From Rubripirellula sp. (GTDB lineage Bacteria > Planctomycetota > Planctomycetia > Pirellulales > Pirellulaceae), in assembly GCA_012270065.1 (NCBI GenBank), contig JAAXJB010000039.1, forward strand, positions 159,924-213,449: DNA of 53,526 nucleotides, in the 5' to 3' direction. Of this stretch, positions 1 through 5,284 are shown in pieces. The notes under the pieces are model-generated. The model searched no databases, had not been told where the DNA came from, and was given only the letters and a program-made list of their open reading frames with translations. Every line of letters starts with the position of its first letter. The stretch's first letter is position 1. The position numbers were made by a program, and so were the translations under genes.

Positions 1-3000
1 TCAACCGAAGGCGAAGCCAGCGTCAGCGTCAGTGCCGAAACATCATCGTCCTCAATGAGTATTGTCTGTTGTGCAAAGTCGTACCCATTTGCAATGGCAG
101 TGAAAGTAACTGGACGCGCATTATCGGAAACGAAATCGTCGATGATTTCCCAAACCACACCAACAGACGATTCACCGGCAGGAATGACAACATTCGACTG
201 AACAACCGCTTCGGAATGATCGGACGTGTACAACTGAACCAGCAGATCATCAGTCTGGTTGATTGAGTTTCTCGTCACTGTCACTTGGGGCTGTGCTTCA
301 TCGTCCTCGAACTTGATATTGTCCAGCGCAAAGTACCCGGGTGTGTTCATGCCGTATTGACCGATGTCTGACGACACCAGACCGAAGGTCAAGGTGGTTG
401 CATCGCCAATTGAGGAGACGTCAACACTGCTCCAGACATCAACAATGTAATCGAGGCTCTGATCCGCAAATCGGAAGTCAGCCAATGGGAACTCGACACT
501 CCCAATCGACAGACCATTTGCATCAAAACCCTCGATTGTGAGAATAAAAAAGTCAGGATCATCTCCTGACGCCCCACCGAACTTTTTGGCTCCGAAGGAA
601 TCACCTTCGCGCATCGACAAAGCAGCGTAGGTTGTATTTGTGATATCCAGACTACTGAACGGACCAACCTGTGATGGGTCTCGGGTTATCGTGGGCACTG
701 AAAACCCCGAGTAGGCATAGCCCACCAGATAAGTATCTGACTCCACCGCACCACCGCCCGTGAAGCTGCTGTACTGGTTCAGATAACCCCTGGTTGTTAC
801 ATCGGTCGTATTGGAATAGGCCCAACCAGTCCAACTACCATAGCTCGGGTTGTATTCGTTATTGAAAGAAAGCCCAGCAGCGGAAAACCCACCCGCACTG
901 TCGGCACCATTGTACGCAGATTCAGGTGCCAGCCGTTGCCCCAGCAACTCAAAACCTTCCGTTGGTTTGGCTTCCTGCTCGGAGAATTCCGACTGCGTGA
1001 ATGAGAAACCCAACGCAGGCGTGTCATTGTCCAAAACGAACAATGTGTCGCTACCTTCTTCATAGCCACCAGCATTTGCATTGATCAACACGGTCACATC
1101 AAGGTGATCGACATCATCTTCTGGAGCAGTGATCTCGAAAGAAGCAGTCAACTCTCCGGCAGGGATGACAACGGGTGACGAAAAGCTCAGTCTTCCGTTA
1201 ATCGAAGCAGTTAAATCAACCGTCAGTGCCTCATGGGGAACTGCGTCATTCCGCATCACTGAACCGGAGACAGTGCCACCTTCATCGATCTGGTTCGCAG
1301 AGAATTCCAGCGTTAGTCTCAACGGATCATCATCCACGATCTCCAGAGTTCTCTCAGTTTCCGCGTAGCCATCTGCTTGAACACGGATCACGATGTCCCG
1401 GTTACCGTCCGCGCTGGCGTTGTCAACAACACCAATCGGAAAATCAACGTGCTGTACACCGGCAGGGATGACAACACTGGTCGGCAGAATTGCCTGCGAC
1501 TCATCCACGGGCTCAATGGTGAATTCAATCGCTTCGGTGGAATCCCCTCCGATGCGAGTCAAACGGGCAGTCGTTGCATGATCACCATCGTTCTCGTGCA
1601 CTGACGTGTCCTGAATGTCCAATGCAACAACCGGTGTCAGCATGACGATGTCATCCACCGCAAAGTAACTTGGGGTGTTCATGCCAAAAACACCTACATC
1701 CGAGGAACTCAGGGAAAATGACAAACTCCTCGCACTCGAAACCGGCCCCAAATCGACTGTGATCCAGTCATCAAGGATGTAGTCCTGTGTGTTATCAGAG
1801 AAACGGTAATCCGCCAGAAAGACGTCCACACTCCCAACGGGCTGCCCTGTGGCGTCCAATCCTTCGATGGTTAACGTAAAAAAGTCCTGATCATCACCAG
1901 AATCACCACCAAACTTCTTGGCAAACGAGTCGCCCAAGAGCATCGATAAAGCCGCATAGGTGGTGTTCGTTACAGCGAGAGAACCAAAGGACCGTAAATC
2001 ATCATCATCGCGAGTGATCAAAGGCAGGTCATAAAAATCACCTTGAGAAGCAAAAGCAACTCCAAACGTGGCAGAACCATCTGCACCGACACCGGGATAC
2101 GCACTGAACTGATTCAAATAACCAGCAGTTACCGTATCCGTCTTGTTGGAGTATGCCCATTGATTCCATGAGTCAAAATCAACCGAGTAAGCATTATTGA
2201 AAGTCAGTGATTCGGATCGAAAATCTCCCAGAACCACGACGTCATCATAAGGCCCGGTAACAATGGTGCCATCCGGATCAGGACCGTTGAAATAATCCTG
2301 GGGATCCAATCCGGCACCAACATCTTCAAAATCCACCAGATCACGTTCGAACTCGATCTGGTTCAAAACACCTATTCCGTCAAGATCGAATCCAGCACTA
2401 CCTTCTGTTGGGCTTGGATCATAGATCACGTCTCCACTTGAATCCAAAGCTGAGCCATCTCCCACGACGTCGATCAGGCGAACATGTGTTACAGCTGCGG
2501 TATTCAACAGTGGGCTGACATCCCGCAAATCTTCAAGATCAAAGGGCGTGCCTTGTCCTCGACGGTATTTGCCAGCAAGATTATGAACATTGGTTGGGTC
2601 AACGGCTCCAAAAGAACCCACTGGTGATGACGTCAGCGAATCGTTGTCAAACCGGAAGAAATTCACACCATCTGAAGACACCTCTACATAGGCAAGTTCA
2701 AGAAAAGTATCACTGAAACTGTTCTCAAAAACGGCGAAATCGCTGCCAAAGCCATCCCGAAGGGGTGAATCAAAAGTCAGGGTTATCTGTCCATTTCGTC
2801 CAAGGGTAACCGCATCGGACGTTGTTCCTTCAGCCGGCCCCAAGGCTTTCATGGGCTGTTGAAAAGTTACGTCGACATGGGACCCGGGCTGATAGTCCTG
2901 ATAGCCACTGGCCCATCCGATGAACGCTGCGTCATCATTTGCAATCGCGGTCGAACCTGCTTGTCCCGCGGCTGGAGCATAGGGACCTGCAAGCAGCCTG

Positions 3001-3098
3001 CGATCTTCCAGCTGCTCCGCCAACATTTTTCTTTTCACTGTGTTTTTCATAAGACGGTTCCCACTATCTCCTGTCAAACTCAATCGCAGTCGCTTCAT
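1..3098 (-). CDS. Giant LEPR-XLL secreted protein with two DUF4465 domains (C-terminus beyond window)
   Basis: An open frame of 1032 codons runs off the left edge without a stop. The ATG at 3098 overlaps the upstream pseudopilin stop as ATGA; an in-frame ATG at 3050 is an alternative start. Residues about 28-38 (EQLEDRRLLAG) match the planctomycete LEPR-XLL signature after a short basic N-terminus. Residues about 53-240 form a beta-rich domain (GFGSDFAVFEN, later GFDLDGIG) of the kind seen in bacterial surface proteins. DUF4465-like domains lie at about 279-486 (FLADYRF, SSSDVGVFGMNTPSYFAVDD) and 737-925 (PLADFRF, SSDIGQYGMNTPGYFALDN). Calx-beta-like segments (for example TILIEDDDVSALTLTLASP) follow each. 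The gene lies downstream of a cobalamin riboswitch, so expression is probably controlled by B12. From memory, DUF4465 proteins occur in B12 loci of Bacteroidetes; a role in cobamide capture is an inference. Domain assignments come from reading, not a search. Confidence 0.85.
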   Translation of the reverse strand, partial: MKRLRLSLTGDSGNRLMKNTVKRKMLAEQLEDRRLLAGPYAPAAGQAGSTAIANDDAAFIGWASGYQDYQPGSHVDVTFQQPMKALGPAEGTTSDAVTLGRNGQITLTFDSPLRDGFGSDFAVFENSFSDTFLELAYVEVSSDGVNFFRFDNDSLTSSPVGSFGAVDPTNVHNLAGKYRRGQGTPFDLEDLRDVSPLLNTAAVTHVRLIDVVGDGSALDSSGDVIYDPSPTEGSAGFDLDGIGVLNQIEFERDLVDFEDVGAGLDPQDYFNGPDPDGTIVTGPYDDVVVLGDFRSESLTFNNAYSVDFDSWNQWAYSNKTDTVTAGYLNQFSAYPGVGADGSATFGVAFASQGDFYDLPLITRDDDDLRSFGSLAVTNTTYAALSMLLGDSFAKKFGGDSGDDQDFFTLTIEGLDATGQPVGSVDVFLADYRFSDNTQDYILDDWITVDLGPVSSARSLSFSLSSSDVGVFGMNTPSYFAVDDIVMLTPVVALDIQDTSVHENDGDHATTARLTRIGGDSTEAIEFTIEPVDESQAILPTSVVIPAGVQHVDFPIGVVDNASADGNRDIVIRVQADGYAETERTLEIVDDDPLRLTLEFSANQIDEGGTVSGSVMRNDAVPHEALTVDLTASINGRLSFSSPVVIPAGELTASFEITAPEDDVDHLDVTVLINANAGGYEEGSDTLFVLDNDTPALGFSFTQSEFSEQEAKPTEGFELLGQRLAPESAYNGADSAGGFSAAGLSFNNEYNPSYGSWTGWAYSNTTDVTTRGYLNQYSSFTGGGAVESDTYLVGYAYSGFSVPTITRDPSQVGPFSSLDITNTTYAALSMREGDSFGAKKFGGASGDDPDFFILTIEGFDANGLSIGSVEFPLADFRFADQSLDYIVDVWSSVDVSSIGDATTLTFGLVSSDIGQYGMNTPGYFALDNIKFEDDEAQPQVTVTRNSINQTDDLLVQLYTSDHSEAVVQSNVVIPAGESSVGVVWEIIDDFVSDNARPVTFTAIANGYDFAQQTILIEDDDVSALTLTLASPSV

Positions 3099-3904
3099 CG
3101 TTTCAGATCCGGTGTATTTTCATTTCCATTTCTTGTGCAAATCGCAGCCAACAAAACCAGTTCCATGCTCTCATTCATGAACACAACCGAACCATCTGCA
3201 AAGAGACCGTTGGCACCCTGCGGATGCATACTTCTGATATCGTTTTCGAACGAAGGTGCACGATTGATTGGAAAGGCCTGATCGAACAGGTTCCAGGCGT
3301 TGATCCACTGGCCATCACGAAAATTGGCATCCTCAGAGATCATCAGTGTTCTCGACAGACCATCGGTAACATCACGAAAACGAATCGCTTGATCGTGTAT
3401 CAACACACCACGAGGTGGATAATTCGTTGTGAGTATCCTCTCTCCATAAATTCCGCCATAATCGGTTGCTCCCTTGCCGCGGTTGAGCACTTGTGGTCGT
3501 GACGTACTTGGACAGAGATACGTTTCGATCGGGGTAGCAGCTGCCTCGGCATTGACTGGGTGATCAAACGCGTAATTAAAATCAATTTGTGAATAAACTG
3601 CCGGTTGCTCAAGGAATGGCAGTACCATCGCTGACCAGGCGATCTGCTTTCCCCGCGGCGTCTCCGGACGCACTTCGATTCCACCAGGAGGCAGCTTTCG
3701 AAAAGCCGCATGGTAATTGTGCAACGCGATTCCAATTTGATGCAGATGATTCTGACACTGCATACGGCGTGCGGTCTCACGAACTGCCTGAATCGCCGGT
3801 AGCAAGAGTCCGATCAGCAAGCCGATGATCGCGACCACGACCATCAATTCAACGACGGTAAACCCTGATCGCGCGGTCGTTCCGGGTTGCTTGCAGCGGC
3901 TCAT
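3095..3904 (-). CDS. DUF1559 family pseudopilin (H-X9-DG protein)
   Basis: This 269-residue protein begins with a type IV pilin-like prepilin signal: after a short polar leader, SGFTVVELMVVVAIIGLLIG fits the G/F-T-x-x-E cleavage motif followed by a hydrophobic helix. The DUF1559 core follows (RRMQCQNHLHQIGIALHNYH). Near the C-terminus HPQGANGLFADG gives the H-X9-DG motif. I chose the ATG at 3904 because GGGAG lies 5 nt upstream; a GTG at 3949 would add 15 residues but lacks a good ribosome site. The stop overlaps the ATG of the downstream giant gene (ATGA), so the two are probably co-translated. The cobalamin riboswitch lies 174 nt upstream. DUF1559 proteins are greatly expanded in planctomycetes and are thought to be secreted or assembled through a type II/IV pilus-like route; their specific role is unknown. 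Confidence 0.92.
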   Translation of the reverse strand: MSRCKQPGTTARSGFTVVELMVVVAIIGLLIGLLLPAIQAVRETARRMQCQNHLHQIGIALHNYHAAFRKLPPGGIEVRPETPRGKQIAWSAMVLPFLEQPAVYSQIDFNYAFDHPVNAEAAATPIETYLCPSTSRPQVLNRGKGATDYGGIYGERILTTNYPPRGVLIHDQAIRFRDVTDGLSRTLMISEDANFRDGQWINAWNLFDQAFPINRAPSFENDIRSMHPQGANGLFADGSVVFMNESMELVLLAAICTRNGNENTPDLKR

Positions 3905-4078
3905 CGACACTCCCGTTGCGCAAACGCCTTGCCCACCAAAACCTATCACCGCATTCAGGTGGAAATAATGATCAATTCAAACTACAAGCCTAAGCAGTGA
4001 TGACTGCACATTGCCCTCATGGCAACTCAGCTTTGGCACGGACCTCACCCAAGAAAGTCACATCGCACCCGGTTGTGT
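3905..4078 (-). promoter_or_regulatory. Leader between riboswitch and DUF1559 gene
   Basis: The 174-nt leader holds only a weak 5-bp hairpin (TTGCC/GGCAA, 4025-4011) without a following T run. The ribosome site GGGAG sits just before the ATG at 3904. No anti-terminator/terminator pair is apparent, so the expression platform is either translational or Rho-dependent, or lies in pairing not visible by eye. Confidence 0.4.
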
Positions 4079-4301
4079 GGTAGGTCTTCTGACTTCCGAT
4101 GGGTCCATCGCACTGCCTTCTCGTGAGTCAAGCCGGCAGCACTTTGCTGCAAGACCTTTCCTCTACAATGGCTCAGAGAGAATGCGATATCTGACGGGAG
4201 AACTCTCCTGTCACATCGGTCACAGCGGCCGGGCCGTCCCGGGGTTTCACCGGAGTTCCCTGTACACGCGTTCGCTCTTGCGATACGCGTCACCACCAAC
4301 C
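4079..4301 (-). ncRNA. Cobalamin (B12) riboswitch
   Basis: Read on the minus strand, the conserved core appears in order. GGTTGGT (4301-4295) is the 5' closing strand. GGGAACTCCGGTGAAA with CCCCGGGACGG and GCCGCTGTGA (4260-4220) matches the family core. A GAGCCATTG/AGGAAAGGT block lies near 4173-4152, and a B12 box AGTCAGAAGACCTACC (4094-4079) compares well with the AGCCAGGAGACCTGCC consensus. The terminal strand pairs with GGTTGGT except for one mismatch. Size (about 223 nt) and order fit RF00174. A promoter lies just upstream and the DUF1559 start is 174 nt downstream. I see no intrinsic terminator in the leader, so the mode of control is unclear. This family normally turns genes off when adenosylcobalamin is abundant. 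Confidence 0.93.
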
Positions 4302-4314
4302 GTATTGGCTGCAG

Positions 4315-4343
4315 AGCGTAACTACCGCATCTTAACGTGTCAA
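4315..4343 (-). promoter_or_regulatory. Sigma70-type promoter for the B12 riboswitch transcript
   Basis: A perfect -35 box TTGACA (4343-4338) is followed by a 17-nt spacer and TACGCT (4320-4315), which keeps the key T, A and final T of the -10 box. The predicted transcription start near 4308 falls just before the riboswitch begins. Confidence 0.6.
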
Positions 4344-4519: not shown

Positions 4520-5284
4520 ATGCTCAATCGATGCCAAATCGTTCTGCCTGCCCGCCTTGCTTCCTCACGCCTCAAAGAAAAGCTCCTACTCAAAGCGGGT
4601 GGAAAGAGCATCCTCCATCATACGTACGAAGCGGCATCACGGGTCTCATTGGATGCAAATGTGGTAGTTGCTGTGGATGACCCAAGACTGGCTCAAGAGG
4701 TCGAGTCTTTTGGCGGACGGTGGCTGATGACGAGTGAAAACTGCGCAAGCGGAACGGACCGACTTGCCGAAGTCGCAGATGCCTTTCCTGAGACTGAGAT
4801 TTTCATCAACGTTCAAGCGGATGAACCAGAAATCAACCCCGTGACGGTCGAACTGGTTGCCAAGACGCTGCTTGATCACCCTGATGCGGAAATAGCTACG
4901 GCTGGCACGCCCATCCGCCATGAAGACCAGCTGCACGATCCTGCCTGCGTCAAAATTCTCGTTTCAGAAAGGGAAGGGCAGAGAAGGGCAGTCTACTTCA
5001 GTCGAGCTGCCATTCCGTATGTGCGAGATGGTATTGACGCCTCATTGTTCAATGCCCATCCGCCCATTTTCTGGCACCACATTGGACTCTATGCGTATCG
5101 ACGCGATTTCCTTTCCTGGTTTGCATCGCAATCTCCCAGCCGATTCGAGCAACTTGAAAAGTTGGAGCAACTGCGAGCCATTGAAGCCGGAAAAAAAATC
5201 GTTGTCGCGTTGGTCGATGCTGCGACCTCCGGGATTGATACAACGGACGATTTTCAACGCTTCAAGCAAAAATTTGAGCGTTGA
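4520..5284 (+). CDS. kdsB: 3-deoxy-manno-octulosonate cytidylyltransferase (CMP-Kdo synthetase)
   Basis: This 254-residue protein matches the usual KdsB length. The enzyme activates Kdo with CTP to give CMP-Kdo for lipopolysaccharide inner core synthesis in the cytoplasm. Recognisable motifs are the N-terminal nucleotide loop PARLASSRLKEKLL, the NVQADEPEI block (family usually NVQGDEP), HHIGLYAYRRDFL, and EQLEKLEQLRAIEAG near the C-terminus. The ATG at 4520 places the loop at the expected distance from the N-terminus; no strong Shine-Dalgarno is visible. A 7-bp hairpin (4464-4481) lies in the region upstream. The gene is transcribed away from the B12-regulated unit. The CTP synthase gene lies 740 nt downstream on the same strand and makes its substrate. 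The presence of kdsB implies LPS-type outer membrane glycolipid. Confidence 0.95.
   Translation: MLNRCQIVLPARLASSRLKEKLLLKAGGKSILHHTYEAASRVSLDANVVVAVDDPRLAQEVESFGGRWLMTSENCASGTDRLAEVADAFPETEIFINVQADEPEINPVTVELVAKTLLDHPDAEIATAGTPIRHEDQLHDPACVKILVSEREGQRRAVYFSRAAIPYVRDGIDASLFNAHPPIFWHHIGLYAYRRDFLSWFASQSPSRFEQLEKLEQLRAIEAGKKIVVALVDAATSGIDTTDDFQRFKQKFER

Follow-up and report, generated by a model that had tools for sequence, protein, structure and literature searches.

A cobalamin-riboswitch operon of a Rubripirellula couples a pseudopilin to a giant DUF4465 protein: a probable cobamide-capture system

Results

A riboswitch operon at the edge of the analysed stretch

The subject of this study is an operon at the left end of a 53,526-nucleotide (nt) stretch of Rubripirellula sp. 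DNA (Planctomycetota; Pirellulaceae; contig JAAXJB010000039.1, positions 159,924 to 213,449), referred to as a whole as the window. It belongs to a genome, labelled G000, that is 99.53% complete in 122 contigs; other genomes and loci are likewise given G and L labels where they need to be told apart. Within positions 1-4343, all on the minus strand, lie a candidate promoter, a cobalamin (B12) riboswitch, a pseudopilin gene of the DUF1559 family and the beginning of a gene for a giant extracellular protein with DUF4465 domains. An initial annotation of this DNA had described these elements as a single unit with no transporter in it, and both statements hold, as do the coordinates that it gave (1-4343).

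The riboswitch, for which the annotation had named 4060-4340 as the region to search, is confirmed by a covariance-model match to RF00174 at 4312-4062 (59.8 bits against a gathering threshold of 31.5; E 2.2e-12). The match covers the full length of the model (positions 1-189) and is the sole Rfam match above threshold within the window. The gene whose 5' leader contains the aptamer lies on the same strand, an arrangement repeated in the three nearest relatives (L098, L099 and L100). The proposed promoter stands only in part. A candidate -35 element, TTGACA, read in the sequence at 4338-4343, is invariant in the window and these three relatives; the candidate -10 element, TACGCT (4320-4315, 17 nt after TTGACA and directly before the aptamer at 4062-4312), is poor, and a consensus promoter scan found no promoter. 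The leader from the aptamer to the likely pseudopilin start (3905-4061) is strongly conserved in its first part in the three closest relatives. The near-identity in four relatives of positions 4061-4000, 3' of the aptamer (TGTGACTTTCTTGGGTGAGGTCCGTGCC...), exceeds what a spacer would need, and this stretch is perhaps the expression platform. Folding of the whole leader gave a z of -1.48, with 7 of 100 shuffles equally good, and therefore makes no statement on such a platform. Expression of the operon on B12 starvation, through the riboswitch, would be expected from this layout.

The first gene (open reading frame (ORF) 3095-3949, minus strand; likely start ATG 3904, preceded by GGGAG as read by eye) encodes the DUF1559 pseudopilin that the annotation had predicted. 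PF07596 (DUF1559) matches at E 8.6e-59; the prepilin motif SGFTVVEL is accompanied by an N_methyl match (PF07963) of 22.3 bits against a cut-off of 21.2, and the H-X9-DG tail (TIGR04294) scores 31.2 against 19. Methylation motif, DUF1559 body and H-X9-DG tail are the features that it shares with DUF1559/SBP_bac_10 pseudopilins. Its score for the type II major pseudopilin GspG (TIGR01710) stays below the curated equivalog cut-off (37.1 against 88.85). A structural model with a mean predicted local distance difference test (pLDDT) score of 81 had no PDB match at E <= 0.001, the best being a gonococcal pilin (E 0.14, 82 aligned columns), and the model thus offers no hint of a B12 site.

The giant protein and its DUF4465 domains

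The giant's coding frame opens with an ATG at 3098 and shares ATGA (3098-3095) with the end of the pseudopilin gene, its stop codon included; the N-terminal 1032 amino acids (aa) are encoded at 3-3098 of the minus strand. The frame leaves the window at base 3 because an assembly gap of 100 N (L003 14825-14924) lies directly before window base 1; the gene continues to the left at L003 14824-11992. The protein has a LEPR-XLL-type export motif, LEDRRLLAG (2985-3035); the corresponding model, Planc_extracel PF07595, stays under its cut-off (E 8.7e-5; 22.5 bits against 25.5). An N-terminal domain (NTD), considered below, is followed by DUF4465 domain 1 (1629-2213; MNTPSYF), a repeat linker (909-1628) that may be Calx-beta-like by resemblance, and DUF4465 domain 2 (294-908; MNTPGYF). 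A Calx-beta match, below threshold, was obtained in relative L108 only. PF14717 (DUF4465; cut-off 25) matches the in-window giant in two stretches with E 6.9e-109 and 362.4 bits. The two domains counted by the annotation are therefore correct for the window and an undercount for the gene, since a third lies past the gap on the same strand (E 1.7e-53, 182.1 bits). A dockerin match, also past the gap, falls just under its cut-off (20.4 against 22.9 bits), and dockerins above the cut-off occur in relatives L103 and L108.

Where the gene is uninterrupted, the NTD and three DUF4465 domains share one chain of 2003 (L101), 2011 (L102), 2020 (L103), 2021 (L104), 2014 (L113) or 1922 aa (L108, Rhodopirellula solitaria CA85); the protein has 1950 aa and one DUF4465 domain in L107, and 1517 aa and two in L105. 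In L098-L100, too, the gene is broken after the second DUF4465 domain, there at a contig end or close to one; near-identical repeats in the part that follows are probably the cause of all these breaks.

The annotation had tied DUF4465 to B12 loci, and two recent publications take this link further. BtuJ1 and BtuJ2 of Bacteroides thetaiotaomicron are DUF4465 proteins that bind cobalamin very tightly (PMC12751083), and B12 was bound by all eight distant DUF4465 proteins tested, one of them from the planctomycete Mucisphaera calidilacus, in a study that reports TonB and ATP-binding cassette (ABC) genes as DUF4465 neighbours (PMC13398666). A sequence search with the giant recovers the B12-bound structures 9hmu (E 1.8e-29), 9fct and 9i2l. 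Each of its three DUF4465 domains keeps a tyrosine at the positions of the BtuJ1 contact residues Y97, Y146 and Y245 (PMC12751083); across an alignment of 14 planctomycete domains, the HI-loop column (NTPxY, Y245) holds tyrosine in 14 of 14 and the DE-loop column (Y146) in 13 of 14. The giant's own DUF4465 domains would, by this resemblance, bind cobamide.

The likeness to BtuJ1 and BtuJ2 extends to the B12-riboswitch operon and the tyrosines of both loops. Unlike the window's protein, these are single-domain lipoproteins whose operon also encodes the TonB receptor BtuB (PMC12751083), whereas the giant unites three DUF4465 domains and the NTD in a single polypeptide of about 2,000 aa and is coupled to a pseudopilin. 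In relatives, small stand-alone DUF4465 proteins occupy the giant's place in the operon. Many stand-alone DUF4465 proteins of named Planctomycetota loci end in PEP-CTERM-like tails, and the giants begin with LEPR-XLL starts; the same capture domain is found on different surface anchors. Surface display of the giant itself is likewise suggested by its sequence.

An N-terminal domain from B12-riboswitch loci

The NTD, residues 38-255 of the giant (2334-2987, minus strand), matched no Pfam family and is a candidate BtuH-like domain. A phylum screen of 392 Planctomycetota genomes for DUF4465 and the NTD found the latter in 29, often adjoining DUF4465 and a riboswitch. Genome G167 repeats the order of the window (riboswitch, pseudopilin, NTD, DUF4465) with the NTD and DUF4465 as separate genes, and the giant is therefore a fusion. 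At NTD loci without an adjoining DUF4465 gene (L079 and L090-L097), RF00174 was present in 8 of 9, L097 being without it. Outside the planctomycetes the NTD is a common neighbour of DUF4465 (19 of 42 loci). In L097 itself (G274 C242) the NTD matches weakly (E 6.3e-5) within an open frame of 5243 aa, and its surroundings yielded no riboswitch.

An AlphaFold2 model of the NTD (mean pLDDT 88.7) has as its two best PDB matches 8blw, a BtuG1 chain with a BtuH domain (E 3.6e-4, TM 0.49), and 7biz, BtuH2 (E 7.0e-4, TM 0.50). The likeness is remote, with TM about 0.5 and a root-mean-square deviation (rmsd) of about 10 Å. A search of the PDB with the single NTD sequence returned 0 matches up to E 1; a 41-row NTD profile finds residues 396-473 of 8blw (E 0.0025), roughly where the C-terminal BtuH extension, some 250 residues long, starts (PMC10404256). 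BtuH2 binds B12 through its C-terminal domain (PMC8941943). The NTD is a member of a family that occurs at B12-riboswitch loci, and it may be BtuH-like, its fold class being surer than its kinship to BtuH.

Surface capture of cobamide by the operon is, in our estimation, highly probable, because the DUF4465 family binds B12, the contact tyrosines are kept, B12 riboswitches lie upstream and the NTD comes from a family of B12 loci. It could instead be argued that the giant is chiefly an adhesin, so that B12 starvation would lead to attachment to B12-producing algae or bacteria, with DUF4465 and the NTD performing recognition and the pseudopilin serving as an attachment pilus. LEPR-XLL and dockerin giants would resemble matrix or adhesion proteins, and discoidin and CBM32 folds are among the matches of the NTD. 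However, every one of the eight published DUF4465 members bound B12 (PMC13398666), the giant retains the tyrosines, and its operon place is taken in relatives by small stand-alone DUF4465 proteins. An adhesin is accordingly an improbable account, and capture remains the reading that we carry forward.

Recurrence of the pseudopilin at DUF4465 loci

The pairing of riboswitch, DUF1559 and DUF4465 to which the annotation drew attention proved recurrent in planctomycetes. The 11 DUF4465-bearing genomes of the phylum screen have 12 DUF4465 loci, the window's included, and a pseudopilin gene stands at 11 of these. Eight lie on the same strand and three are divergent (L086, L087 and L088), the pseudopilin of L088 being under a riboswitch of its own (68.9 bits); L089, without a pseudopilin, lies at a contig end. 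The G057 locus runs riboswitch, DUF4465, NTD, pseudopilin, BtuF-type binding protein, ABC ATPase and BtuC-type permease.

From a scan of a GTDB collection that gave 573 DUF4465 relatives, the best 80 were used for locus counts: 37 titled Planctomycetota, 42 others and L120, an unlabelled 'uncultured bacterium'. Counting a pseudopilin as present when on the same strand and within 4 kb of DUF4465, it was found at 31 of the 37 titled Planctomycetota loci versus 1 of the 42 others. L120, which has a pseudopilin, is excluded from the counts; including it gives 32/38. Five of the six negative Planctomycetota loci end at a contig edge (L109, L115, L119, L124 and L164), and for loci with at least 1.5 kb on both sides the figures become 21/22 versus 0/34. 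A same-strand riboswitch accompanies the DUF4465 module at 32 of the 37 titled Planctomycetota loci and at 11 of 12 other loci checked. The sole positive among the 42 non-planctomycete loci, L175 of an Opitutaceae bacterium (Verrucomicrobiota), has DUF4465, the NTD and two pseudopilin matches.

With DUF1559 genes so abundant in planctomycetes, one might be expected to fall beside B12 genes by chance: G000 has 26 PF07596 matches, Planctopirus limnophila has 68 DUF1559 paralogues, two of them essential (PMC10632474), and 74 members are reported for Rhodopirellula baltica. Against this stand the contrast between 31/37 loci and 2/101 control slots (1.5-kb stretches of the same loci, far from DUF4465) with a pseudopilin-type gene, the clades of their own that these pseudopilins form, and the separate riboswitch at L088. 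Chance is already refuted as a general account and merits next to no credence, although it may apply to single cases such as L087. On the evidence of sequence, the link between pseudopilin and DUF4465 is real and recurrent.

Dedicated pseudopilins and B12 operons without DUF4465

When 51 DUF1559-type proteins were placed in a tree, all but one of the 30 locus pseudopilins (29) formed one clade together with the long-branch paralogue par_L195 (support 98/81). A second, quicker tree, from which the long branches par_L199 and par_L193 were left out, keeps 28 of 30 together with a Shimodaira-Hasegawa-like approximate likelihood ratio test (SH-aLRT) support of 81, L107 and L087 lying outside. Neither tree includes par_L200 (26 aa) or the pseudopilins of eight named Phycisphaerae-type loci and L120. 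What sets the window copy apart from other DUF1559 pseudopilins is its place in a clade specific to these loci and its control by a B12 riboswitch.

As a control set we took the 30 top-scoring planctomycete B12 riboswitches without DUF4465, with 1.5-kb flanks that leave room for one gene. A DUF1559-type pseudopilin is present in 9 and is the first gene in 8. Of the other control loci, 20 have an ORF; in 14 of these the main one downstream encodes a TonB receptor, and the remaining six have PKD repeats, a BtuF-type protein, CbiK or nothing recognised; L041 has no ORF. One longer type of operon runs riboswitch, pseudopilin, small protein, PP-loop ATPase (PF01902), DUF6580 and BtuF-type protein, another has pseudopilin, small protein, nitroreductase, CobQ-type amidotransferase and BtuR adenosyltransferase. 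DUF6580 was found at 0 of the 30 short-flank loci and is present in the longer Planctomycetia operons. When ten further loci were chosen before their genes were read, nine proved to be headed by a pseudopilin, L239 being the exception. The 18 pseudopilins of cobalamin-salvage operons fall in a second clade, which is separate from the DUF4465 clade (SH-aLRT 99).

For the comparison of both genes longer stretches were used, and no pseudopilin was found at 14 TonB loci (3.6-11.5 kb examined), nor a TonB receptor gene at 18 pseudopilin loci (3.3-8.8 kb downstream examined). The two kinds of locus come from different lineages, so that this is a swap between lineages and no controlled comparison. 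The sole TonB-like match among the pseudopilin loci, in L223 (86-aa frame across the aptamer, E 1.7e-6), was interpreted as an artefact of queries extended upstream.

These operons bear on the main rival to a part in B12 uptake, namely that the pseudopilin serves as an adaptor in secretion: in the manner of a minor type II pseudopilin it would recruit or push out the giant or the DUF4465 protein, move no B12 and leave uptake to another outer-membrane route. Type II secretion systems use pseudopilins as their moving part, the pseudopilin and giant frames overlap by ATGA, G000 has 7 secretin-domain matches, and the cargo looks extracellular, with LEPR-XLL-type starts on the giants and PEP-CTERM-like tails on many of the relatives' stand-alone DUF4465 proteins. 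The second clade, however, heads B12 operons where no DUF4465 was found, even if the small protein that follows its pseudopilins, lipoprotein-like by eye, could be a cargo. Nor is pairing with a LEPR-XLL giant a general rule for DUF1559 in G000, a possibility that we rejected when no LEPR-XLL appeared among the neighbouring ORFs listed for 20 other DUF1559 loci of this genome. Finally, in other planctomycetes it is a TonB receptor gene that follows the B12 riboswitch instead. A purely secretory role is thus unlikely in our judgement, albeit deserving of serious attention, and a dedicated part of the pseudopilin in cobamide acquisition is preferred.

Two further features of pseudopilin-headed operons deserve mention. 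The PP-loop ATPase (PF01902), of the diphthamide-synthase type by Pfam on the L221 copy, follows the pseudopilin in L221, L222, L232, L236 and others; if it acts in corrinoid salvage, that would be new to us. In G098 (L229 3903-4586 oriented, the same as L048) the riboswitch is followed by a 227-aa protein with a PEP-CTERM-like tail and then by the pseudopilin, and a 219-aa frame without a Pfam match takes the same place in L044. These first-gene proteins are possibly another surface cobamide binder.

B12 requirement and import genes of the host genome

G000 encodes a B12-dependent MetH (B12 domain, E 4.6e-122). CbiC was found neither in G000 nor in any of the 49 DUF4465 genomes surveyed for TonB, CbiC and BtuC genes, and was found in 7 of 14 control genomes. 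The TonB plug (PF07715) has 0 matches in G000. The best PF01032 (BtuC/FecCD) match of G000 (E 1.7e-7, 31.7 bits) lies above the cut-off of 26.5, with 188-311 bits reached in 18 of the 49 genomes, and is presumably a cross-match of other ABC permeases. At L004 10737-12142 (C57, outside the window) a second B12 riboswitch of G000 (108 bits) is followed by a DUF1289 ORF and by the gene of a membrane protein with DUF6580. This domain, of which no mention was found in the open-licence literature, is a candidate component of an inner-membrane cobamide transporter. Twelve DUF4465 genomes of other phyla comprise 2 without a TonB plug and 10 with 5-64.

Discussion

Taken together, these data lead us to regard the operon as most likely a BtuB-independent cobamide-capture system, a reading made from gene content and homology. 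It would be a scavenging operon of a bacterium that requires B12 and is probably unable to synthesise the corrin ring. A low cobalamin level in the cell would lead the riboswitch to permit expression. The giant, exported by virtue of its LEPR-XLL start and ending in a dockerin-type domain, would be shown at the surface, where its BtuH-like domain and three BtuJ-type DUF4465 domains could provide up to four cobamide traps per chain. The dedicated pseudopilin, presumably translated in coupling with the giant, would join the traps in a pseudopilus assembly, akin to type II secretion or type IV pili, that would keep them at the cell surface and assist bound cobamide in reaching or crossing the outer membrane, in place of BtuB and TonB. 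Import across the inner membrane would probably fall to another riboswitch-controlled unit, for which the DUF6580 gene behind the second riboswitch of G000 is the candidate.

Not all parts of this scheme are equally secure. The annotation had proposed a cobamide-capture system delivered by a pseudopilus-like route; capture is well supported, whereas delivery is something that we infer. That the pseudopilin takes a direct part in cobamide acquisition appears to us reasonably probable from its genomic company, and that it acts in transport is a tentative proposal on the same grounds. Slightly more tentative again is the fullest form of the idea, a planctomycete vitamin route independent of TonB and BtuB in which a pseudopilin induced by B12 starvation would form or tip a pseudopilus, bind cobamide itself or via the DUF4465 and BtuH-like traps, and draw it into the periplasm, with two clades of such pseudopilins in the operon place of the TonB receptor.

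Several observations weigh against this interpretation. Concerning the outer membrane, the TonB plug is absent from 26 of the 49 DUF4465 genomes and at least one is present in the other 23; many of the surveyed genomes are draft metagenome-assembled genomes, and those lacking TonB group by lineage. It is also absent from 36 of 156 genomes of a phylum sample, where absence is again confounded with lineage, and in G057 a TonB plug lies about 5 kb beyond the second B12 riboswitch. Pseudopilin-headed riboswitch operons mostly belong to one family (f4), which confounds them with lineage too. No pilus machinery is encoded in the operon. As for distribution, the presence of DUF4465 in only 11 of 392 Planctomycetota genomes indicates, as judged from sequence, that it is not the phylum's general B12 route. 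The sixth pseudopilin-negative locus, that of Paludisphaera soli (L128), has riboswitch and DUF4465 and no pseudopilin, and the divergent pseudopilin of L087 falls outside the locus clade. Weak matches to the window pseudopilin (E 1e-6 to 1e-11) account for 8 of the 31 positive named loci; the four proteins of this type that were tested, all taken from other genomes, carry the N_methyl motif without DUF1559, so that 'pseudopilin' there denotes a looser class. Regarding the NTD, its superposition on 8blw and 7biz is poor (rmsd 10.6-10.8 Å), and the muskelin discoidin domain 4oyu nearly equals BtuH as a match (E 7.4e-4, rmsd 5.8 Å).

Comparison with established uptake clarifies what is distinctive. 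As in BtuB-BtuFCD uptake, a riboswitch controls the first gene of a B12 operon, and in G057 that operon continues with BtuF, ABC and BtuC genes; unlike it, G000 has no TonB plug, and the pseudopilin stands where other planctomycetes place the receptor gene. To our knowledge, BtuB with TonB is the only outer-membrane B12 route known. At about 1,355 Da, B12 is too large for ordinary porins, for which about 600 Da is cited (Boedeker 2017, PMC5394234). The same work describes pili-like fibres of planctomycete crateriform structures that bound gold-labelled dextran and leaves the outer-membrane step open. A B12-controlled pseudopilin fits this picture by analogy, with the difference that the available text names no fibre protein, lacks the word pilin and shows no reference to B12 (PMC5394234).

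Riboswitch-controlled DUF4465 B12 binders are already known, and the pairing with a pseudopilin was not found reported. The open-licence literature yielded no report of a pseudopilin with a B12 riboswitch; the terms pseudopilin, pili, planctomyc and DUF1559 are absent from the main text of PMC13398666, as far as available, and no tested function for any DUF1559 member was found in the accessible DUF1559 literature. If a B12 auxotroph without TonB indeed uses a riboswitch-controlled pseudopilin, this would constitute a different way for a vitamin to cross the outer membrane. It would also represent a fibre-based nutrient importer and give the large DUF1559 family a first substrate. The old problem of how planctomycete surface fibres feed the cell could then be approached with a labelled ligand of small size. 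Should no transport occur, the giant would still stand as a rare case of a surface protein whose single chain carries several predicted cobamide sites.

Outside the unit, its divergent neighbour (window 4520-5284, plus strand) encodes a cytidylyltransferase (PF02348) that is CMP-KDO synthetase-like.

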